DNA of 64,000 nt from NCBI RefSeq assembly GCF_004210375.1, contig NC_134833.1:145754127-145818126 (forward strand), written 5' to 3'. Below, one piece after another: positions 9,401-59,132 of this stretch. The notes beneath the pieces are model-generated. The model did no database searches. It was not told the origin of the DNA and saw only the letters and a program-made list of their open reading frames with translations. Each line of letters begins with the position of its first letter. Position 1 is the stretch's first letter. This stretch comes from Tachypleus tridentatus. Taxonomy: Eukaryota > Arthropoda > Merostomata > Xiphosura > Limulidae. The translations under genes and the position numbers were made by a program.

Positions 9401-12400
9401 TTGGCTGTCACAATCCTCTCCTTCTGTTTTTTCTGTGATTTTTCACACCAGGTCTTCATATTTTGCTATCACAATCCACTCTTTAATATTTTTCCCTTCT
9501 ATTTGACCCTCCAGTAGGACTTGATGAATGTTGTCTCGTCTCATCGCGTGGCATAAACTATTTTCCTCCTCTTGATGGTTGGTACAACATATTTCTTCAC
9601 ATGCACCAAAATTTCTTCACTTGTTACCTTAATATTCAGGATATTTCCATCATCTTTCTGAATATCCACATCTTGAATGCTTCAAGTTTGTTGATTAATG
9701 GTTGCATCAAGGTTCGTGTTTCACAGCCATTTAATGGAGTTGACCACATATAGCATTTTATGGTTTACTTACTTGTACTCTTTCAGGTCAAGCTTGTTTT
9801 CATACTATTAGAGGTACCTCTTACCACCTCAAATCTCTTCACAACTTTCATCACCTGTTATGATATAGCCCAAGTATATGAATATCTAGACTTAACAATG
9901 CAGTCAAGTTGTAAGTTACTAGGGTTGTTTGATAGATCTATAGCTTGAGATGTTAAAGTGTACTTTACTAGCTGCAAGGTACTTTGTACTAGCTTTCGTG
10001 GTTAATCCTGTTGAAAGCTTTTTCGTAATGAATGAAGGATATGTATACATCTTTTCCAAAGTATCTGCTATTGTTGTTAAAATGAAAATTCGGTCCCTTG
10101 TTCCTCTTCATATTATAAAGCAACATTGCACTTTACTTGTATCTTCTTCATTCGTTCGTTGATTTCTCTGTATTGTTATCTTCGGTATGTGACTCATCAG
10201 AGTTAGTGTCATGTAACATCAACACTATCTCTTGTACTTTCTTTGGTATTCAGACAAATATTAAATCATTTGTATCGGATATTAAGAAAAAGTTAATAAA
10301 TCCATTTGTGCATCTGGTGGTTCAATGGTTCATATGAAAGTCTATATTGCTATAATTCAGGTGTCTATTCTTATGGTTCATATGTTACAGATAGCCCATT
10401 GTGTAGCTTTATTTTAAACACAAAGGGACTTGCAATAATAGAAAAATGTTCATGCAAAGACAGATTAAGATAAATCTTAAATTATTTTCTTTTGAAAAAA
10501 GAAGAATAAATGGGTTTACTCACTGTAAGGCACTTCAGTAAATTTGTAGCTTGAGCTGTTAAAGTGTATTTTGGTAGTACTGTATTTTAGTTGTTAAAGT
10601 ATATATTTCTAGCTCTAGTTTTGGTTTTGAGTGTGGTAGGTAAGGTAGTTTAGCATTCAGTCTTATATTTCATGTGTTTGATCACATGCTAGAATATTAT
10701 GTTAGTTTATCTTCTGGCTTGTGTGCAAATTGTTTACTTTTACTTTAGTCCAGTTATTTTTAATCAACAATATTTTCTAAAACCAATGCATTTATGTTGT
10801 CTCTAATTTAAAATTTCCATTTTGAGACCATTTGTTGGTTTAAAAATTACAAATTGTGCCTTGAACCTACAGTGTGCATGCCAGGTGGTTTTAAATTCTG
10901 ATATAAAGCACATGCGATCTGTTCATTTTTGTAGCAATAGCTCACCAACTGGCTTTACCTCCTGGGAGTTTGGTGCAGCCAATAATACAGTATTCCACCA
11001 CTACAGGCACTGGGGTAGGTTTATTTTTCTATTTGAATTTGTATATTGGAAGAAGTAAATATATTTATTATAAATATGTGCTGTCTTTACCTCAAGCAAG
11101 AGGTATATATGTTAAAATTACAAGTTTTCTTTAAAACTGGTACTTAAATTTCAGACCATAAAAGAGATGTTCAGAAATGTTGATTATGCAAATGAGAACA
11201 AAGATTTTAAAATCCTAGTTTAAAGTTATCCCAAAATAAATACTATGACAAGTTTACAGTTGTATTATTATTGCAGTAAAACAATATGGCTAATACATTA
11301 ATATGCATGGATTTAGGGGTTAAATTATTTAACTGTAATATTTGCATAATGTGAAAATTTATTTCATTGCATCATTTTCAATGAATGTTTATCACATTAT
11401 TTATAATGAAATGTATTACTAAGAGTTCAAGTGTACCCCCTAAAGAAATGGTGCTTTCTAATTTTTATCAGTCTGTACAATAATGGATTGATTTTAAGAT
11501 GTGATTTGTATAGACAGAAATAACTTTGATTGACTACAAAAGATGTCAGGTGGTTTGCAGTACAATAAGGTTTAATAACACAAAGGAAAATTAGTATTAG
11601 TCTTGTAGGAAATATATTCTTTTTATATCAAACCTAAACTACTGATATAACATGATACAGACAAGGTTTAAAATAAGAGTTCCAGAATATGCAGTGATAC
11701 TTGTCAAAACATCCATATCTCAAGCTAAGTGTTGTAATAAAGAAACATAGCCACACTGTGTGTTATCCAAGGGTACATTTTGACATGTATGTACTCCCAG
11801 TGTGTTGATGCTTTTCAATATACACTTTAAACACAAGTATAAAGAAAAATGAAAATGCTTCTTCTTGCCACTAGATGGAAACAGTTGCCCTTACAGTGCC
11901 ACAGAAAGTGACCATTGCCCTGCCTGCACAAAATTCCCAACAAGGTGTACAGACAGTAATGGTAAGTCAAGTGTCATCACTAGTAAATTATACAGGCTGT
12001 AATGATGGGTTCGTTATTAGAGACAGACAAAAGCATTATGTAATTGTAAGCACAACATTTTCACTTAAGCAGGCTAATAAACCAAGAAAGTGTAAGACTG
12101 TAGTGATAAGTCCAGTGTCATCACTTAGCAACTGGCTGGTAGAATATAGAGGCTGGAATGGTCAATCCAACATTGTCACTTTGGAACTGACTAGCACAGC
12201 ATGCAGACTGTAATGGTAAGTTTAGCATTGTCACTTTGGAACTGACTAGCACAGCATGCAGACTGTAATGGTAAGTTCAGCATTGTCAGTTTGGAACTGA
12301 CTAGCACAGCATGCAGACTGTAATGGTAAGTTCAGCATTGTCACTTTGGAACTGACTAGCACAGCATGCAGACTGTAATGGTAAGTTCAGCATTGTCAGT

Positions 12401-15400
12401 TTTTAGCACATATTTTATTTGTTTGTTTGTGATTTTTTTTTCTTGCCAGAACATGAATTTCAGTTAAGATAACAAAGAGGCCTAATCCATTCTCTGATTA
12501 GTGTTTCCACTGAACTTGGTTCTTATATAAAGTCCTATATTCATTAATTCTCTTTATTGAAATTTCCATTTCAGTGAGTAATTAATTCACAGAATGATAA
12601 GTAACCAATCATTTTTCTGTACAATAGCAGCAATGACTCTATGTCGCACATTTTCCAAACATCTAAAGTATTTTAGGTTACTAATGGTGAGTAAAAAGCT
12701 AAAACCAAACCTTCTATTTTTTGTGACAGCTCAGAAGGAAACATTGTAAATAAATGCTCCATAGGTAAATATCTAAATCTTTCCATGCACTGTTGTTTTT
12801 TTTACATTTTAAATTTAATTCAACAGTTAGACATTTTATTCAAGAGTGTCTTAAGAACACAAGAGAACAGTTGTTTCTGATATATACCTTCAAAACCATT
12901 TTACTTAAACAAGTGCCAAAAACTGGAGATTGGAATAATGAAACTTTTATGGAAGTTGTTAACTTTTGTAGGTTCCATACCATTGTATACTATAGTTAGT
13001 TCTGCTTTATTTACAGTCTGCTGGTGCTACTATCACTCTAAATCCTCAAATGACAGCTAACCTGCTTCAGCAGGCTGGTATTTTGAGCACTCAACCAGCC
13101 ATGCCCAGTAGTCTTGAGACAGGTTGGTGTTCTTTCAGTGTTACTGCTGTACTTGAGCAGTTTTAGTTAATTTCTGCTTGGTCACAATTAAAACAGAATT
13201 TTATTAAAACTTTATTTGTAGACATATTTTAGTGCTTGAAAGGAGGACTTTTGGAACAAAATCTTTGGCAGTAAAGAAAACTCCAAGAATACTGTTTTTT
13301 AAGTAATAATAATAATCTTAACTGCTTTTATAACTTTTAAATCTTATTCTAAATAAATTTGTTCTATCATAATTTTAAAGAAATTTCATCCAATATTAAT
13401 TTTGTACTTTAGCTTGTATTTAAGTATTTATTTGGTAATACGACCAGTTAGGTGTTCTCGCAGTATATAATAATTCTGTTAGAATTATAGTAGTTCCAAA
13501 TTTTCTTCATAGACTGTTTTTGATCTGCAGTTATATAAATACAATCACACCAAATTAACCATTTTCAGTAATTTTCTTGCTTTATCTTTTTACTTGTTTA
13601 AACTTGGTAAATTGTAATTGAAAAAAAATAAAATAAAATTTTGAGCTGTGTTTACTATGATGTAGAAACTACTTAACTTGGACATTGGCTTTAAGAGGAT
13701 GGGTACAGTGCTTTTAAATACAGTATCTAACTAGAATAGTCTTACCTGATATGTACTGACACTATATGCACACATTTTTGTTGGCCATTAGTCTTGATAC
13801 TTCCACCTACCATCAAATTTTCTTATTTAAAGTAACTGCATGATAGCATGCGACAACTCTCCATCAATAAGCATGTGATATAACTCCTAGCAAGCTGACT
13901 TCCTCTATGCAACTTAGAACAGCTTCATTTCTCGAGTGTCACTCATGTTAAGACGTGTTTTTTTTTTCCTCCTTTTCTTTATGCTATTTTATTCAGTGGT
14001 TTGATTTTCTGTGGAAACTTAATTTTTCTTTACATTTGCTACACTAGTGTCTTGAAATCATGGCATTCCGTGTTTTTTATTATAATATATATTTATTTGG
14101 GGATCTCTGTTTGGTCTCTTTTTAACTTCAACTCCTAATTGAAATGAATTCTGAGTTCCGCATTTCATCTACCTCAACTGATGTTCCTACAATTATTTAT
14201 TATTTTAATTACAGTGGCCTCAGATCTACCATTATTGGTAGCAGATGTTACTCCCTCTGTGTACTGGGAGTTGGCCACGTTTATTCAGACTCCTGATTCA
14301 CCTGAGGATTATTCTTTCGTCCCTTGTTCAAGTTTACCTGAACAAAGAGAGAATATTTCTGGCAGACTATTCCAACCCTTCCTTCACCGCCCAGTCATGT
14401 TTAGCTCCAGTATGTGTAATCAAACTTCTTTTTTTTGAGGGTTAAACACTACAGCTTTGCTTCATTTTGTCTTTGTTCTTCATTTCCTTTCACCTCTTCA
14501 CTTTACATGAGACACATTCAGGCCAGTATCTTGTTCTGATTGTCCTTCCTCTCATTGGATATTGGGGTTCATGCCACTGGGTTTGTGGATCAGTTATATT
14601 CAGGGATCACTTCACCTTGACTTCCATGTGTTTTAAAAGCCTATGCTACAACTTCTCATAGGTCTGCATATCAGTTTTTTTTAACTTGCAGCAGTTGATT
14701 TCTCTCCTGCCTCTTTGAGGTTCAGATCTCAATTTTTCCCAACCTCATATTTTCCCATATTTACTTTATATTATCCTCTCTCCTTCATTTCTTTTTCTCG
14801 ATTATCCTTCTAACTGAGGATCTTCATTGTTTTTCTGATGTTTTTTTTATGGGGAATTCTGCTCTGTTTATATAAACATAACTCCTCTGTTGATGGGATC
14901 TCTTGGTTCAGGATGCCTTTACGTCCTGTATGAATATACCCCCCCCCCACCTCATTATGGGACTTGCTCATGGCTCCATTTTTCAGGTGAGATGTGTTTG
15001 TGGATCTTCTTTCCTCATTGTCTTCCTGTTTGTCTCAATCTTCTCCTGAATGTTACCATGTCTTATCCTTTGCCCACCATTCTTTTACTATTTCCTGTTA
15101 CATGGGTCTTCGAGATTAGCCATCAGTTTGTTTATTGATAGATTCAGTACCCTGGGTGGTCCCATTGGGTTCAGGTCCAGTAGAGGCCAGACTTTTGCTC
15201 TTTGCCACCATTTGGAAGCCATTCACCACAAACCCTTTGGTTTTGAATTTTCTTTCTTAAGGGCTCATTCTTTGTTTCAGTTTCCTCACCGTCTCATCAT
15301 CTCATATCCTTCTTCCTTTCTTAGGATCCCATTTCCAGTCAGTGTCTTTCTAATACAGCTTGGTGTAGGTCTTGAACACTTTCCTACACCTTTCTCAATT

Positions 15401-18400
15401 CACCATGGAATCTTTCCAATGTCTTCAGTGGGCTTTCACTCTTTATACAACTATGTTAGATGTCTAGTGTGCTTACTTCCACATTCTAATCTTTCCTCTC
15501 CATGCCATTTCATCCATTGTGGCTACATTTACCTGTTCTGTGCTTTTCCATTTGGGCTTTTTTTCTATCTATACAACTTTTGTTGGGTTGTTAAGATCTT
15601 TACTCATATTTTCCATTCTAGAAGCTTTTGTTTTCACTATTATATGGATTACTGGCTGCTTCTAGCTCCTTTTCAATCAGTTTCTTCTTCAAAAGACTGT
15701 ATGTATAAGTTGTCTACTCAAAATGGAAAAATCTTTTCTCTCTTTTAAATCATAATGTTTTCACCTTGGAGTATTTTTCAATTTCCATTTCTGCTGGGTC
15801 CACTTTTCTCTCCTTCACCTGCAATCTATGGAGCTTTTGTTTCCTTTTCACCCTCTCAAACTGCTTCTTTGAAAAATACAGGTGGTAGGCTTCTTTTCCT
15901 GCTAGATTCGAAGCTCTAAGAAAAGACTTTAGTGAGCTCAAAATTTCATATTGTTTTAGACCTAAATACAACTTAGTTCATAAACTTGATAAATTAGAAT
16001 AGAATCTGAGGTAGTTGTATAATAATTTATCATTTTTGGTTATTTTAAAACATGTATGTAAAACCTAAAATATTATTTTATCTTATGTCCTCCATGTGTG
16101 AAATTTGATAAGGCTTAGCTATGTCAAATAGTAATTGAGTATAAAATTCATAAATAGAAGAGAATTTTTTTTTCCTGTACATCTTTATTTACTATTCTGT
16201 ATGTTAATAAACTTAAAACCTTGTTTGTAAATACTTATAATCTGTATACATATATAATACATTATAACTAAAATGTAATTGTATTTCACAAAGTACTAGT
16301 CTATGAAAACTGTCAAAACAGTTCACTTGGTAAAGACCGATTTTATATTCCTGGATACAGTAACATGAGTGCACATGCACCAAATCATTAAACTTCTAAT
16401 ATTAGTGTTACTCAGGCTCGGTTGAAAGGTCAATATAATAAAAATACTCTGTGTTTGTGTGTGTGTCTATAGATAAATAATGTTTAATGAAATTTAGAAA
16501 TTAACCTATTTTCTATGTAAAAATGGGCAAATTTGCACATTTTCATTTACATAAGATCTGAATAAGACAACTTATGATTCAAGATTTACATGTATTTATA
16601 CTGAAGTTATACAAAAATGTTTAGAAGTGAGTAGTTTTTCGAGATTTGCAACTGTAATGTAAATCACCTACATGTATCAGCTCCCAAATACAGTCTCCCA
16701 TCATGTTTTTGTTATACACTCCTTGGTAGCAGCATTCAAAATGCAATATATCTTGGCGGAAGTGCTCGCCTTGCTCCTCTTAGTATGCTCTCATGTTCTC
16801 CTTAAATTTATCAAGATGAGTGCCAAGGATATGCGCCAAGCCCATTTTGCCATGATTATTCACCAGATCCTCAACCAGTTCACATAACTGATTGCCCAAG
16901 AAGCTCGAACCACTGTGACAAAGCTGCCCTAAGCTTTATTTTTTCCTTCCTCTCTCACCAGCTGCACCTCTGAAATTGTAATCTGTATCTTCAACGTCTA
17001 CCTCCTATTTTGATTTGCTGCTCTCTTCTAAGGATGGCTGCTTTCTCTCTGGCAGAATGGGTACAGGGAGCTCGGGGCAGTGTGGCACTGTGGCGATAGA
17101 TGATGGAAGTTCTGGATGCATGATAACAGATGCATTCTTGCCAGACCAACGTTTGGAAGGGTCCACCATGCAGAAGTAGCAATTGTTTGAGTGGTAAGTG
17201 GGTTCACACCAAGTTCTTGGAATAGCAAACTTCATCGCTCTGTTTTCCCCTTTGTACCATCTTCCAAAAAAGCAAAATAAAATTGTTATTATGAAGAATA
17301 AATTTATTTCGTCCACAACTAATGTGTAAGAGGTTCATGCAAAATATTTTATATGTGATATTTTTCTATACTATTGGATATTAAAAAAAATATTAAAAGA
17401 TATTTAAATTTTAAAAAGTCTAAAATTTGTATAATATAAATCTTACTGTTCAAACAAGCAAAAATTGTCCGTCTTACCTTCTAGAGTTTTTTTGCAGTGT
17501 TTGCAAGTAGAATGAGGTGCCCAGGGTTTGTCTTGATCTGCGACAGGTATGCCGAAATATGCCTTGTAGGCTTCACACATTTTAGCAGATGCTATCACAG
17601 AATACTTTTTCGCTCTTGTCTTGATAAAGTTGCCACATACGTAGCAGAATGCGACTGGAGAATGCATGTAGTTTCTTGATGCCATCTCTGATAAAATCAG
17701 ATAGGTCTATGTGCTTACTTAGGCAGCTAGAACTAAACTAAAGTAGTGAGTTTTAAGCCCCCGTATATATATATATACTATATATATTACTATGGAAAGT
17801 TCTAGAGAATTCTAAAAGGCTATTGAAATTTTCGTAAGTTCTACAACATTCCAGAATGTTCTTGAAAATTCTTATAAGTTCGAGAAAATTCTCTATCAGC
17901 TACTCAGCAATAATTCTACTTGGAATGTTCTGGAAAATGGATAGATTTGAAAAATTCATTGCCCAGGTCACAAAAGCTAAGTTTGAAGGAAAATTAGGTC
18001 TTTCCCATTTACTTGTGTCTTTGATGGTAGAGACAAGTCCACATAAAGGGAATGTGGAAAAAGGACAGGAATGTCCAAGGAAACTCGCATGAAGTTTCAT
18101 GTTCCCTTTACACTTTCTGCCGAGGAACAAGAAAAAGTAAAAATTTTGTTTCATAGTGTTACAGTGAAACTTCATGTGGGTTGCCTTTAGATATTCCTGT
18201 CCTTTTTCTGCCTTCCCTTTATGTGGACTTGTCTCTACCACCAAAGAAGAGCATCTTTTCACAAATGCTTTGCTTTTTGATTGGCGTGTATATCTTCTCA
18301 TGGAGGAAGTTTTGGAACATTGTTCTACTGGTGAGTCATGTCTGCATATCAGTCTTATAGAACTACTTGCTGTCTATAAGGCTCTTTGGTTCACTTCATT

Positions 18401-42361: not shown

Positions 42362-43588
42362 TTAACAATCATCTTGAACTATATCAGAAACAGGAGGCTT
42401 TTTCAAGGCTCCCATGAACAACACTGACTTGTACTTATTTTCTAGAATCAAGAAAACAAAAGGATGGTTAGCTGTAAATTCTACAACCTCTCTAATAAGC
42501 ATGCACCGTTTTTGTAAGATAACTCCAGTGGCTGCAGCTGCTTCAGTACCTTCTTCACTGACATCTAAAAAAGCTCTTGTGAACCACTTCTCCTACAAAT
42601 AGATCCTGTTGCCCAGTAATCCCAGACAAGTCAGCTTTATCATGTTGAAACATGTCTTCCATCCCGATTCTTGAAAGTTGTTTCTTCATGGATATATTTT
42701 CCTCAAGATGAAATTTTGGTAACGAAACACGAACATTTCCTTTAACCATATTTTTAATCAATTCTTTAATTGCATTATTGGATAAAGATTTCTCTAGAGC
42801 CTCCAGTCCTTCTATTGCATTAGGAAGAAGAATAACCATGCTTACAAGACCATTTCTGTAAGGCAATTCTAAGGCTGAGCAACTCAGTTCTTCGCTCACT
42901 CCATATCGAAAACTGTGTTCCTGATACATCATGTGAACGTTTACAGCTTCCTTTTCAGAAATGTAAAACAATTTCTTGTGGGTGGTTCCTTTAGCAAATT
43001 CTCGAGCCCAATTTCCTTTGAAGTAGATGGCACTGGTCAAAACCATTCGGGTTAGAGGAGTGATCAGATCTTTGGTAATCAAATCACTAATCTTCCCTTT
43101 TGTGGTCCTTTCTACCCAGGAGTTGATCTCATTCATAGATCCACTGGGATCCTTTTGAAAGTCAACCGTCCCAAGATCACTATCATAAAATATTTCTAAA
43201 GCAGAGCTATAACTGCTTAGAACATTCATTCCAGTCTGAGCAAAGATACGATTTGCTAACTCAAGTATCAAGTTTCCCTCCTCTTCCTTTTTCAACACCA
43301 GCAGAAAGTCTCTGAAACCATGGTGAACCTCATCTTCTGCTAGACTGGACACTCCTAGAGCACTTCTTATCTGTTCTGCTGTCTTGTTTTTAGAACCAGC
43401 TAAAGTCATGCCTAATGATAGTGCAATATTAACTGGAGAAAAAAAGATGTTCTGGTTTGGACTTTCAAGTAAAACTGCCTGATACAAATTGATGGCAAAG
43501 TCTGTGCAGCCTCTGGCCACCTGAGATGTACACATATTCTCTCCTGGCTTTACCTGGATTTCCATATTTTTCTCACAGTTGCAAAGCC
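42362..43588 (-). CDS. serpin, LICI-like protease inhibitor (terminal exon, one frameshift)
   Basis: One exon encodes the whole serpin fold, about 407 residues after a TTTTTAG acceptor ending at 43589. Near the N-terminus are FAINLYQAVL and NIFFSPVNIALSLGMTLAGS, the serpin core start. In the reading frame from the ATG at 43565, translation ends early at 42555. A run of six T (minus strand; 42567-42572) has one base too many after VVHKSF, and reading past it gives the hinge EEGTEAAAATG and a loop ending QKR-CML. Counting from the hinge Gly (P15), P1 is Arg (42506-42508) and P1' is Cys. The C-terminal signature TANHPFVFLI and the stop at 42362 follow. An upstream signal-peptide exon is expected but was not found. 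The resemblance is to limulus coagulation-inhibitor serpins, which block trypsin-like clotting proteases. The frameshift may be real or a sequencing error. Confidence 0.85.
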
Positions 43589-51569: not shown

Positions 51570-52130
51570 AATGCTCAGGTTTAGGAATATTACTTATATC
51601 CTGTCTAATAAAAACAGGCTTATGTTAAGGGTCAGGAATATTACTTGTATCCTGTTTCATAAAAACAGGCTCATGTTCAGAGTTAGAAATATTACTTATA
51701 TCCTATCTCATAAAAACAGGCTTATGTTAAGGGTCAGGAATATTACTTGTATCCTGTTTCATAAAACAGGCTCATGTTCAGAGTCAGAAATATTACTTAT
51801 ATCCTATCTCATAAAAACAGACTTATGTTCAGAGTTAGGAATATTACTTATATTCTGTCTCATAAAAACAGGCTTATGTTAAGGGTCAGGAATATTACTT
51901 GTATCCTGTCTCATAAAAATAGGCTTATGTTCAGGGTCAGGAATATTACTTATATCCTGTCTCATAAAAACAGGCTTATGATCAGAGCCAGTAATATTAC
52001 TTATATTCTGTCTCATAAAAACAGGCTTATGTTCAGGGAGCAGGAATATTACTTGTATCCTCTCTCATAAAAACATGCTTATGTTCAGAATTAGGAATAT
52101 TACTTATATCCCATCTCATAAAAACATGCT
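51570..52130 (+). repeat. 51-bp minisatellite with an open reading frame
   Basis: About eleven copies of a 51-bp unit (GTCAGGAATATTACTTGTAT, then CCTGTCTCATAAAAACAGGC, then TTATGTTCAG). Because 51 is a multiple of three, one frame stays open as a 17-residue repeat (MFRVRNITYILSHKNRL). A one-base loss in one unit (near 51766) shifts the frame. No flanking start, splice or homology suggests a real protein. Confidence 0.9.
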
Positions 52131-52960
52131 AATGTTTGGGTTGCTGTCAGAGCTTGAAAGTTACCACTGCTTTGAATATGACTACCCCTAAAGTTTATCA
52201 CAACGTCAAGTGATCCACAGACAGGAACTGTGCCACGCTTTTAAAGTTTTATATTAAATTCAGACTTAGTTTATGCTTAGCCAAAGTTGAACTTCAAGTT
52301 ACAGGTCTACAACAGTCTTCACAATCTCGTAATTTTTAGAAATATATGCTTTAATAACATGTATTTTCTTTGTCTCTTGTTTTTGTACACTAATATATAT
52401 TATACTTTAATTACAAAATACAATACATAATAGCTAGACTTCTCTTTGCTAACTGACAAACTATATCATGCGCTATCGCTTAGCTTCAGACCTTCTGACT
52501 AAATTTAATGAGTTACACACGTAACAGACTTAACTCTAAAACGAATATAAATGTAAAAAAATAAAATAACTTTGACATCAAAACAATTGTAGCCCATGAT
52601 CCGCAAGCTGCTACAGTATTACAAATTCAAAGTGTGATACTAGTGTTATATGAGAACTGAACATTTAACAGTATCATTCTTACGTTAATAAACTACTACA
52701 GTTTAAACGACCACAAACCTACTTCAATAAAATCTTCAAACAATTCTCAAAGATTATCACCTTAAGCACTCAACTTTGGACAAAAGTGTATGAAATTGAT
52801 AACATTTTCTGATTATCGAAATAGTATCCACCCACACCCAACCTATCTTATTTCGATAATCGTGGTGGGAAGAGCACAAACTAAACAAGAAGTTCACAAA
52901 CAAAACTAACCACTAGGAAGACAGATTTGGAAATTAAATTCTAGAAATAACGTTTATTTT
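52131..52960. other. gene-free stretch
   Basis: No gene or repeat family is recognised. Confidence 0.4.
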
Positions 52961-53880: not shown

Positions 53881-55445
53881 CTGCTGGCCAAAATCTTAAG
53901 GCCAATGAACATGAAGAAAAAATATGTATTTTGCTTTATTAAACTCAACCACGTATTTGAGTAGAACTTCGAAAGATGAAAATAAGAAAAGGGAAAATAA
54001 AAAAAAAAACCTTGTTATCATTTAATAGGGAAAATGTGAACACTATGAAATTAGCCTAAATACTAGCTGGTCAAAAGTTTAAGACCATACCAAAAAGAAG
54101 TCCTAAACAGGGTAGGTAATGCCCAACAAGAGGTTTCAGTAGTGAGTTGCACGGCTATCATTGCGAATAACTTCAAACATTCGCTTTGGCATGGTCGATA
54201 TAAGCGTTTGCAGAAGACTGGCTGGAATGTTATTCCAACTGGTGAAGATAGCTTCCCAAAGATCATGCACTGTTTTGAAATGACGTCCATTTCTATAGAC
54301 TTCCCTTGCCATCCACCCCCAAACATTTTCAATTGTGTTCAGTTCGGGCGAACACGCTGGATGGTCCAAAAGAAGCATGTAATTCGCCATGAAAAAGTCC
54401 TTTGTCCTACGGACATTGTGGATTGCAGCGTTGTCCTGCTGAAATATCCAATCATTTCCACACAAGCGAGAGCCTTCAGTCAATAAGGATGCTCTCTCCA
54501 ACATGCCAATGTAGCCAGCTGCTGTTTGACGCCCCTGTATGACCTGAAGCTCTATTGTTCCATGGAAAAAGAAAGTACCCCAGATCATCATGGAACCTCC
54601 TCCACTGTGTCGTGTAGAAAATGTCTCCGGTGGGATATCCTTATCGTGCCAGTAACGTTGGAAACCATCTTCACCATCCAGATTAATTTTTTTCTCATCA
54701 GAGAACAAAACCTTTATCCACTTTTTTACGTCCCATGTTTGGTGCTTCTCGGCAAAGTTTAACCGAGCTGTTTCATGGTGTGAAAGGAGACGTGGACTTT
54801 GAAGACGTTTACGGTTTTAAAGGCTTTCTCTCGTAGATGCCGTCTTATTGTTCTTGAGCTGCATTCTGCGTCCGTAAGGGCCTTAATCTGGTTCGACGAT
54901 TGGCTGGTGTCTTGCCGGACAACCCGTAAAATCCTCCTGCTCAACGCCAGCGCAATCTTCTTCGGTTGACCACTTGAAATTCTCGTTTCGTATCCCGCAG
55001 GGTTTTTTACGAAATTTGCAACAGCAGTTTTACTACGCTCAATCTCACCAGCCATGACCTTGCTTTTGCAGCTCGACAATTCTGCCACGTTCAAACTCTG
55101 TCAACTTTTTAGCCTTTGCCATGTTTTTACCCAATGCAACACAGGAGATGTCAGTGGAAGATGTTGACAACGCTAATGCTTGAACACAAATGACTAAGTT
55201 TCGTTACGTGTTTACCGATTATCGCTTCGTTTCAGTGTGGTCTCAAACTTTTGACCAGCTAGTATTTAGGCTACTTTCATAGTGTTTACATTTTCCCTAT
55301 TAAGTGCTGAAAGGTTTTTATTTTATTTTTCCTTTTCTTATTTTCATCTTTCGAAGCTCTACTCAAATAAGTGGTTTAGTCTAAAAACGCAAAAATGCAT
55401 ATTTTTTCTTAATGTTCATTGGCCATAAGATTTTGGACAAGAGTT
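53881..55445 (-). mobile_element. Tc1-type transposon with long inverted repeats
   Basis: TA dinucleotides flank inverted repeats of roughly 200 bp (53881-54090 and 55236-55445). The ends carry CTGCTGGCCAAAATCTTA. The inner ends carry CTAGCTGGTCAAAAGTTT and its complement. It contains one broken Tc1 transposase on the minus strand. Confidence 0.88.
54136..55122 (-). pseudogene. Tc1-family transposase, frameshifted
   Basis: It starts MAKAKKLTEFERGRIVEL at 55122 and soon meets a stop. A paired-type HTH follows in another frame (RSKTAVANFVKN, then ALTDAECSSRTIRRHLREK). The catalytic domain is open at 54708-54136, with FSDEKK (Asp), [10 protein letters not shown] (Asp) and NTIENVWGW (Glu), so a DDE triad is visible, ending near ATHY. 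At least two frame breaks disable the full protein. Confidence 0.88.
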
Positions 55446-55775: not shown

Positions 55776-56229
55776 AGAATTTTTTTACATTTATTTTCTT
55801 CATCAAAATAAAATTTCAATGAAGAAAACACGATGCATAGACAAAGCATACTGTTTAATTTGCTATTCTAGTTGCAACATACAATTTCAACAAAGTCGCA
55901 GCTCATCATACTGTTTATAAATAAATGCGGGTGTTTTAAAAGCCACAATCAAAAGGCATAAGTCAGCGAAATATTATAAAACCAATAAGGTTGAAAAGTT
56001 TATAAAAATACGTTCACTGTAATTCTTTGTTTCTAAGATTACTATTACTTTATGATTATTTACTATTGTTATAATTATTTGTACATTTCACACAAACCAC
56101 GTGATTAAAGAACAACTATAGTATTACGGTTTATGGATTTCACACTAGTCACGTAATTAAAGAGCAGATGGGATATTGTTGTTTATACATTTCACACTAA
56201 CCTGAGTGGAGAACAGCTAGAATATTACA
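55776..56229. other. gene-free stretch with short related segments
   Basis: No gene is seen. CATTTCACACAAACCACGTG and CATTTCACACTAACC recur about every 60 bp near 56085-56205 (a weak direct repeat). Confidence 0.4.
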
Positions 56230-56379
56230 CTACGTCACAAAATTTTTACTTTATCTTGTTTCTCGGCAGAAAGTGTTATTTCCCAATTGCTTATCCCTAA
56301 AGTAAATGGAAAAGACCTATTTTTCTCTTCAATCGTTGCTTTTGTGATCTGCGTAATGACATTTTCAAATTTACCAATT

Positions 56380-56392
56380 TTCCAGAACATTC
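56380..56392 (+). promoter_or_regulatory. three-unit heat-shock element, copy B
   Basis: TTCCAGAACATTC is a perfect nTTCnnGAAnnTTCn element, 32 bp before the long array. Copy A has a comparable extra element (17923-17935). Confidence 0.7.
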
Positions 56393-56423
56393 CAGGTAGA
56401 TTCAGTGCTGAGTAGCTGATAGA

Positions 56424-56486
56424 GAATTTTCTCGAACTTATAAGAATTTTCATGAATTTTCTAGAATGTTGCAGAACTTAAGAGAA
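56424..56486 (+). promoter_or_regulatory. extended heat-shock element array, copy B
   Basis: Thirteen units in exact 5-bp register: GAA, TTC, GAA, TAT, GAA, TTC, GAA, TTC, GAA, TTG, GAA, TAA, GAA; ten match exactly. It lies 141-203 bp before the ATG at 56627, the same spacing as in copy A, with a TATA-rich tract between. HSF binding is inferred from the motif. Confidence 0.82.
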
Positions 56487-56626
56487 TTTCAAGAGCCTTT
56501 TAGAATTCTGTAGAACTTTCCTTAGTAATATATATATACATATATATACAGGGGCGCACCACTGACTACTTCAGTTTAGTTCTAGCTGCCTAAGTGAACA
56601 CATAGACCTATCTGATTTTATCAGAG

Positions 56627-57739
56627 ATGGCATCAAGAAGCTGCAAGCATTCTCCAGTCGCATTCTACTATGTATGTGGCAACTCTATCAAGACAAGAGC
56701 GAAAAAGTACTCTGTGATAACATCTGCTAAAATGTGTGAAGCCTTCAAGGCATATTTCGGCATACCTGTCGCGGATCAAAACAAACCCTGGGCACCTCAT
56801 TCTACTTGCAAACACTGCAAAAAAAACTCTAGAAGGTAAGACGGACAATTTTTGCTCATTTGAATTGTAAGATTTATGTTATACAAATTTTAGACATTTT
56901 AAAATTTAAATATCTTTTAATATTTTTTTAATATCCAATGGTATAGTAAAATATCACATATAAAATATTTTGCATGAACCTCTTACTCATTAGTTGTGGA
57001 CGAAATAAATTTATTCTTCATAATAACAATTTTATTTTGCACTTTTGCAAGATAGTACAGAGGGGAAAAGAGAGCCATGAAGTTCGCTGTTCCAAGAATT
57101 TGGTGTGAACCCACCTACCACCCAAACAATTGCTACTTCTGCATGGTGGACCCTTCCAACCGTTGGTCTGACAAGAATGCATATGTTATCATGTATCCGG
57201 AACTTCCATCATCTATCGTCACAGTGCCACACTGCCCTGAGCTCCTTGTTCCCGTGAACTCGTTAGGCCAGAGAGAAAGCAGCCATCCTCAGAAGAGAGC
57301 AGCAAATCAAAAGAGGAGGTAGGCATTGAAGATCCAAATTACAATTTCAGAGGTGCAGCTGGTGAGAGAGGAAGGAAAAAATAAAGCTTAGAGCAGCTTT
57401 GTCACAGTGGTTTGGAGCTTCTTGGGCAATCAGTTATGTGAACTGGTTGAGACTCTGGTATAGAATTATGGCAAAATGGGCTGCAGGATGTTTTTAAAAG
57501 TCCATATCCTTAACGCCCATCTTGATAAATTCAAGGAGGACATGAGAGCATACTCAGAGGAGGAAGACGAGCACTTCCACCGAGATATGTTGGACTTTGA
57601 ACGTCGCTACCAAAGAACATATAAGGAAAGCATGATGGGAGACTGTATTTGGGGGCTAATACGTGAAAGTGACTTACATTACAGTCGCAAACCTCGAAAA
57701 CTATTCCTTTCTAAACATTTTTGCTCATTTTTTGTATAA
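56627..57739 (+). pseudogene. repeat-family ORF, copy B (zinc-ribbon protein, internally deleted)
   Basis: Exon 1 reads MASRSCKHSPVAFYYVCGN and runs to CKHCKKN (56627-56839), with a one-base frame change near its end relative to copy A's CKHCKKTLE. A TAG replaces Trp before the second block. That block reads MKFAVPRIWCEPTYHPNNCY with FCMVDPSNRW from 57077. The last block is MGCRMFLKVHILNAHLDKF to GLIRESDLHYSRK (57476-57739), the family C-terminus. Roughly the central half known from full-length arthropod relatives is missing. Function is unknown. Confidence 0.65.
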
Positions 57740-57860
57740 CCTTAATATAAATACATGTAAACCTTGATTCATATGTTGTTTTATTCAAACCTTATGTAAA
57801 TGAAAATGTGCAAATTTGCCCATTTTTACGTGGAATATTGGCAAATTTCTGAATTTCATT

Positions 57861-58399
57861 ATCCAGGTCACAAAAGCAAAGCTTGAAAGGAATAATGGCC
57901 ATTTTCTGTACTTTTACAACGTAAGCAATTAAGAAATAACACATACTATCCAGGAACAAAATGTGTGTAACAATGTGTTATTGCATACTTCACTAACTTA
58001 TCAAACAGCGGACAAACTGACAGTTAAATACTTCAGTAACTTATCCAACACTGAACAAACTGATACATTAATACTTCAGTTACTTGTCAAACACTGAACA
58101 AACTGTCAGATAGATACTTCACTAACTTATTAAACACTGAACAAATAGTCAGATAAGTGCTTCACTAGTAACTGAAAACTGACTCATTTTATTCACAGAT
58201 TCTCATAATTATAATGTGTATCTGTTCTAGATATTTTCTAACAATAAGATTCATGAACATTCTGGGTATTCCAGAAATACTTGTATAAGTTTACATGATC
58301 TTAGCATCATACGCCCTATAGCAAATAATTTACAGATTTATTGTATAACAGTACTTCGGACTCTTTCTTCTGTCCAGTACTTCATGATAAACATAAACT
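57861..58399. repeat. short degenerate tandem repeat, otherwise gene-free
   Basis: About four copies of a phrase like ACTTCAGTAACTTATCAAACA with CTGAACAAACTGTCAGATA, spaced about 55 bp, occur at 57990-58170. No gene is seen in the rest. Confidence 0.6.
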
Positions 58400-58612
58400 G
58401 TTTGTTTGTTTTGAATTTCGCACAAAGCTACTCGAGGACTATCTGCGCTAGCTGTCCTTAATTTAGCAGTGTAAGAGTAGAGGAAGGGCAGCTAGTCATC
58501 ACCACCACCGCCAACTCTTGGGCTACTCTTTTAACAACGAATAGTGGGATTTATATATGCAAAAACGGCTCGTTTGGGTTGAGAAAAAATTTTACGTAGA
58601 AGAGCGAACAAC

Positions 58613-58639
58613 GTTTCGACCTTCTTCGGTCATCGTCAG
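58613..58639 (-). ncRNA. hammerhead-like ribozyme core
   Basis: The minus strand reads CTGACGA, then TGACC-GAAGAA-GGTC able to form stem II (with one extra U), then GAAAC. This is the CUGANGA/GAAA layout of type I hammerheads described in Penelope elements. Stems I and III were not demonstrated, so activity is uncertain. Confidence 0.45.
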
Positions 58640-58769
58640 GTTCACAAAGAAAGAAAGAGGTAACTGACCGCAGGCTGACCACATGTTTGGAAGGGGTTGT
58701 GTAACTGAGTGTCGGAATGTAGAGGGCGGTGTTAGGTGTTTGAATATATATAATTTTATTTTATTATAT

Positions 58770-58916
58770 TTAATACAGGTATGAAGGTGTTCCTTTATAT
58801 CGGTTTATTTTGGGTTTAAGTTGTTGTATAAGTAAGGCTTCTTTAATTTTGCGTTTGTTTATGTGTGTTTTTTTATTTAGTATTTGAGTGTTTTCTATGG
58901 TTATGTTGTGTTTATT
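58770..58916 (-). pseudogene. Penelope ORF C-terminal tail (GIY-YIG region)
   Basis: It reads HINKRKIKEALLIQQLKPKI followed by NRYKGTPSYLY and a stop. This matches the usual C-terminal KRKIKEALYIKxLKPxLN block of Penelope GIY-YIG endonucleases. Only about 48 codons remain. Confidence 0.75.
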
Positions 58917-59132
58917 TTACGTAAAAAATTTTCTCAACCCAAACGAGCCGTTTTTGCACATATATTTCTCTACAAGTGGGTTTTCTCGACATCACTGAAT
59001 AGTGGGATTGAACGTCACATTATAACGCCCCCACGGCTAAAAGGGCGAGCAGGTTTGGCGCGACGGGGATGCGAACCCGCGACCCTCGGATTACGAGTCG
59101 CGCGCCTTAACCCACCTGGCCATGCCGGACCC

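Follow-up and report, generated by a model that had tools for sequence, protein, structure and literature searches.

A 13-unit array of heat-shock-element pentamers in the putative promoter of a decayed, probably Chapaev3-like DNA transposon

Transposons driven by HSF are already known, ONSEN and the rolling-circle Helitron1_CE being the examples, and what is new at the locus described here is the superfamily to which the element probably belongs and the length of its array of heat-shock elements (HSEs). Helitron1_CE contains HSEs and is described as bound by HSF-1 in heat shock, with the mRNA of its Rep-helicase rising in an HSF-1-dependent manner; the HSE-like motifs of Caenorhabditis Helitrons look tandem and most of the copies are non-autonomous or fragments (PMC6927752). 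The ONSEN element has four nGAAn units and TERESTRA of A. lyrata has six (PMC5059998), and HSFA2 is reported to bind the ONSEN element (PMC3907296). In LTR retrotransposons of Cryptococcus, which are mobilised at higher temperature, one putative HSE was noted in TCN12 and two in TCN3, and the same paper deals with a CACTA/Mirage/Chapaev supergroup mobile element, CNEST (PMC12810828).

Chapaev3 elements are flanked by 3-bp TWA target duplications between A and T and have been reported to jump between animal species. The Merrow and Garfield transposases are encoded by two exons, and three motifs that typify the Chapaev superfamily, C(2)C, LH and H(4)H, are present in the Garfield transposase (PMC4079192). 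At least in the main text of that paper the word "heat" does not occur (PMC4079192). A Chapaev-type TIR transposon with an array such as the one described below was not found in the open-licence papers searched, which are weak evidence of absence.

Two copies of the element, designated A and B, are present in the window, i.e. the whole stretch of 64,000 nucleotides of Tachypleus tridentatus DNA that was analysed. Their features are as follows.

56225..56227, + strand: candidate TTA target-site duplication, with A before it
56228..56384, + strand: left TIR, starting CACTACGTCAC (alignment covers 56242-56384; the outer end was placed from CAC and the limit of homology between copies A and B)
56380..56392, + strand: separate perfect 3-unit HSE (TTCnnGAAnnTTC) at the inner edge of the left TIR (unit scoring)
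56424..56486, + strand: HSE array of copy B, 13 pentamer units, 10 of them exact alternating GAA/TTC (shuffles, triplet-pair control)
56503..56520, + strand: gap-type-like HSE (GAA n7 GAA nn TTC), in a register 1 off that of the array (by eye; gap type as defined in PMC4552642)
56529..56548, + strand: TATA tract, putative core promoter
56571..56576, + strand: Inr-like TCAGTT, putative start at 56573
56627..56830, + strand: exon-1-like ORF piece with CxxC pairs
56831..57054, + strand: intron-like stretch, 94.2% identical to copy A (splice sites inferred by eye)
57055..57727, + strand: broken exon-2-like coding remains with H-x4-H (HILNAH)
57831..57977, - strand: right TIR, ending GTAACAATGTG on the + strand (aligned part 57831-57974)
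57978..57980, + strand: candidate TTA target-site duplication, with T after it
16485..18158, - strand: copy A, without its right end and with a rearranged left end (BLAST within the window)
17829..17891, - strand: HSE array of copy A, 9 of 13 units exact (unit scoring, triplet-pair control)

The array of copy B reads, from 56424 in steps of 5 (56424 + 5k), GAA, TTC, GAA, TAT, GAA, TTC, GAA, TTC, GAA, TTG, GAA, TAA and GAA, in strict 5-bp alternation with zero slips, and the original prediction of 10 exact pentamers out of 13 without a register slip was reproduced at 56424-56486. All seven GAA positions are exact, as are three of the six TTC positions. The longest perfect run comprises 5 units (56444-56466) and is accompanied by a run of 3; the claim that the array is far longer than those of typical heat-shock promoters holds for its span of 13 units and less so for its perfect run. 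At least three alternating nGAAn/nTTCn units at 5-bp spacing constitute an HSE, which is present in the copy B array, and HSF binding is predicted. The tail of the array, with GAA every 10 bp, resembles the step-type HSE, described as mediating low-level activation (PMC4552642).

The suspicion that shuffled sequence of the same composition might give arrays this long was dispelled, as the maximum was 6 exact units in 13. This value was reached by one of 300 dinucleotide shuffles of the whole window (in the remaining 299 the best 13-unit stretch had at most 5) and by 10 of 1500 additional shuffles of the window. When the local 163 bp were shuffled 5000 times, the maximum was 5 exact units, seen in 4 shuffles. 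For a control on the real sequence, 32 pairs of a triplet and its reverse complement were combined with spacings of 4-10 to give 224 combinations. GAA/TTC at spacing 5 ranked first with 10, and the runner-up, AGA/TCT at spacing 6, had 7; in the parts of the window other than the two repeat copies the best score of GAA/TTC at 5 was 4. The shuffles and the 224-combination control indicate that composition does not account for the array and that the HSE grammar is what stands out. A pattern of 7 exact units matched 9 stretches in a very large viral contig collection, which shows that such runs occur there without any relation to the element.

The perfect 3-unit HSE (TTCnnGAAnnTTC) is located about 31 bp upstream of the array in both copies (56380-56392 in copy B and 17923-17935 in copy A). 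The array itself lies 141-203 bp upstream of the ATG at 56627 with an AT tract in between, which bears out the distance to the ORF and the intervening TATA-rich tract that had been predicted. The TATA at 56541 precedes the putative start at 56573 by 32 bp (-32), which would place the array at about -149 to -87. TCAGTT is called Inr-like on the basis of the arthropod Inr consensus, and the corresponding site of copy A is TTAGTT. The array is one-sided: at most 2 of 13 units were scored in the right subterminal region (57700-57977), as throughout 56521-57977. Judged by these positions, the HSE cluster is located in the element's own promoter, the position and start site of which are putative.

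Copy B is bounded by TIRs of about 143 bp (56242-56384 against 57831-57974), with a local score of 121 in comparison to a maximum of 38 in 200 shuffles. The minus strand from 57977 reads CACATTGTTAC, and the ends of copy B are CAC...GTG. They were chosen by eye, with CAC and a matching duplication as the criteria and ahead of any knowledge of the Chapaev3 rule. The context A/TTA...TTA/T of copy B fits the TWA rule of Chapaev3 (PMC4079192), which is applicable in full to one of the two copies; copy A has G/TAA as its left context and lacks the right end, and the TTA duplication is not confirmed by it. The repeat looks like a decayed cut-and-paste DNA transposon. It is probably Chapaev3-like, an assignment drawn from the ends, from the duplication seen in copy B and from a single short motif. 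This motif, H-x4-H (HILNAH in copy B, HILGTH in copy A), was placed by eye without a profile and is so short that it can arise by chance.

The ORFs are broken in both copies. CxxC pairs are present in the exon pieces; the DDE catalytic core was not located and may be deleted. Pfam detected a transposase in none of the four pieces searched, and no family scored above cut-off: the exon-1 piece of copy A gave a weak match to zf-AD (E 0.0025, 18.4 bits against a cut-off of 28) together with weaker Pfam matches, and that of copy B gave zero matches. A PDB search with the copy A exon-1 piece only gave no match up to E 1, and in viral contigs this piece hit one locus with a 10-residue match judged to be due to chance. 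The C-terminal alignment and the copy A exon-2 piece retrieved 65 and 3 stretches, respectively, from viral contigs, and the exon-1 alignment retrieved 158 stretches from prokaryotic genome contigs; none of these was confirmed. Since the protein collections comprised viruses and prokaryotes, the absence of relatives says little. We take the coding pieces to resemble a transposase-like family of many invertebrates. The ORF is probably what is left of a transposase gene. From the size of the element (1,750 bp as compared to 2,289 bp of Garfield_BM) and its shorter coding remains we infer an internal deletion common to both copies, which could have been mobilised in trans. Rfam at gathering scores found nothing in the whole window, and ARAGORN found no tRNA. 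A separate ORF at 54136-54591 (minus strand, 151 aa) matched DDE_3 (Pfam E 1.5e-08) and is probably a transposase remnant.

BLAST within the window revealed one other copy of the element, at 16485-18014 on the minus strand and 87.9% identical, and a 50-bp piece of its left end. The original prediction had named the presence of in-register arrays in other family members as a check, and copy A, the sole other copy in the window, does have such an array with 9 of 13 exact units, the longest run of them being 5. Since copies A and B share descent, the array of copy A shows that the feature belongs to the family but not that it was selected, and the two copies do not testify to function independently of each other. 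Between the copies the array has 88.9% identity, the other regions ranging from 84.6% (left TIR) to 94.6% (exon 1) with gap columns excluded, and a special conservation of the array relative to the rest of the element is not supported by this comparison of two copies. Copies A and B differ at 1 of the 30 core positions and at 6 of the remaining 33 (p = 0.11), which is suggestive at most of cores varying less than spacers. The left end of copy A lies within a fold-back with arms at 18018-18078 and 18187-18247, 90% complementary, and the terminal sequence of the element between them; the whole fold-back (18018-18247) looks as if flanking DNA had been duplicated into the TIR in inverted orientation.

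Other repeats were observed in the window. A 43-bp tandem array (4.3 copies, 57985-58167) starts 8 bp past the right end of copy B. A perfect 3-unit HSE at 58250-58262 was considered as part of the element and rejected, as it lies 273 bp past the right end and shuffles give a mean of 0.98 such sites per window. An insert at 58552-58996 with inverted-repeat-like ends interrupts a SINE-like repeat and is flanked by gaatagtgggatt (58539-58551 and 58997-59009), like a 13-bp duplication (both by eye). In appearance the SINE-like repeats resemble horseshoe-crab ones. Further tandem arrays have units of 51 bp (10.9 copies, 51583-52136) and 55 bp (4.5 copies, 12153-12402).

Taken together, it is rather likely, as far as can be judged from the sequence, that the array represents the upstream activating region in a heat-shock-type promoter of the transposase gene of a Chapaev3-like transposon, and that this promoter was heat-responsive in the past. 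In an active ancestor, HSF trimers would have occupied the GAA/TTC units in 5-bp register, at about -149 to -87, beside a TATA box (about -32) and a start site of Inr-like sequence, and stress acting through HSF would have raised the expression of transposase. In the two present copies, which are short and broken, the promoter may survive as a fossil or serve as a spare landing site for HSF. In favour of this reading are the array statistics, the array in copy A, the second perfect HSE in both copies and the one-sidedness of the array, and also the TATA/Inr-like spacing, the TIR score, the A/TTA...TTA/T context, the H-x4-H in both copies and the putative two-exon layout as in Merrow and Garfield. 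The ordinary conservation of the array, the TTC units exact in three of six positions, the TTAGTT of copy A and the lack of Pfam transposase matches in all four pieces weigh against it, as do the catalytic core that was not located, the duplication that copy A does not confirm, the common descent of the two copies and the searches of viral and prokaryotic collections, which gave no relative. A heat- or stress-inducible mobile unit, present or past, that may spread HSF sites to nearby genes had been predicted; this is borne out in part, by the HSE grammar in both copies of the window and by the TIRs, the CAC/GTG ends and the TTA of copy B as marks of a mobile element. Since the ORFs are broken in both copies, "may have been" suits a heat-inducible autonomous unit better than "may be".

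The array could instead be a decayed 10-bp tandem repeat that arose from slippage or from duplication of a GAAnnTTC seed, with the HSE grammar incidental and the sequence never an HSF promoter, an explanation that is possible though doubtful. TRF found 56423-56467 to be weakly repetitive with a period of 10 (AGAATTTTCA, 4.5 copies, score 41), so GAAnnTTC seed duplication may have built the array; the decamer spacers are partly similar (T at decamer position 5 in 5 of 6 in copy B), and the lack of special conservation of the array between copies would also fit. However, the HSE grammar alone exceeds 7 among the 224 combinations of triplet pair and spacing, and the array has a perfect 3-unit HSE and a gap-type-like HSE (the latter by eye) on its flanks and stands at promoter distance from the TATA and the ORF. 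Moreover, the ONSEN element itself is thought to have been built by duplication of a GAAnnTTC-type seed (PMC5059998), and a tandem origin of the array is therefore compatible with function.

The promoter explanation is also compatible with the array being bound by host HSF even today and making neighbouring genes heat-responsive, which we regard as quite unlikely. The runs of 3 and 5 exact units left in copy B and of 5 in copy A speak for this, and the Caenorhabditis Helitrons provide a precedent (PMC6927752). Against it, the sole non-transposase Pfam match among the three ORFs of at least 150 aa that were listed and scanned is a serpin about 13 kb from copy B (single-exon ORF 42555-43565, minus strand, 336 aa, Pfam E 1.3e-99). 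That the array consists of subterminal sites to which the element's own transposase binds is very improbable: it does lie 196-258 bp inside the left end, and subterminal repeats are present in many TIR elements, but it has the unit and the 5-bp alternation of an HSE, and a promoter is favoured by the fact that nothing similar stands close to the right end (57700-57977, with at most 2 of 13 units).

The heat-shock-type promoter could also have had a wider role, although we consider this unlikely. HSF and the 5-bp HSE grammar are common to nearly all eukaryotes, so a 13-unit array would allow transposase expression in any new host. A Chapaev3 lineage with such a portable hsp-like promoter, active mainly under stress, would be aided in horizontal transfer and transposition bursts and would seed HSF sites across host genomes.

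If the array drives heat-induced expression of transposase, the set of transposons with a direct link to HSF grows by a Chapaev-type TIR DNA transposon, whose site cluster is longer than those of the plant examples ONSEN and TERESTRA (PMC5059998, PMC3907296). With this element one could then test in a simple way whether stress induces transposition in an animal and whether transposons are helped to cross species by the grammar of a widely shared transcription factor. Even if the array is no more than a fossil, it remains a defined supply of preformed HSF sites.

The element resembles Helitron1_CE as a DNA transposon with tandem-looking HSF-type sites and non-autonomous copies; unlike Helitron1_CE, it is of the TIR type and is known from sequence, whereas HSF-1 binding was measured in the Helitrons (PMC6927752). 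Clustered nGAAn units in a transposon promoter are shared with ONSEN/COPIA78, COPIA37 and TERESTRA, but these are plant LTR retrotransposons and their clusters are shorter (PMC3907296, PMC5059998). TCN3 and TCN12 are likewise mobile and equipped with putative HSEs, theirs being situated in a retrotransposon LTR, and in the parts of that paper drawn on here none is named for CNEST (PMC12810828). With the Chapaev3 elements Merrow, Garfield and Conan the element has in common TWA between A and T (copy B); the putative two-exon layout is as in Merrow and Garfield, the H-x4-H is a candidate H(4)H motif (by eye), and Garfield_BM comprises 2,289 bp and 556 aa in comparison to 1,750 bp and broken pieces here (PMC4079192).
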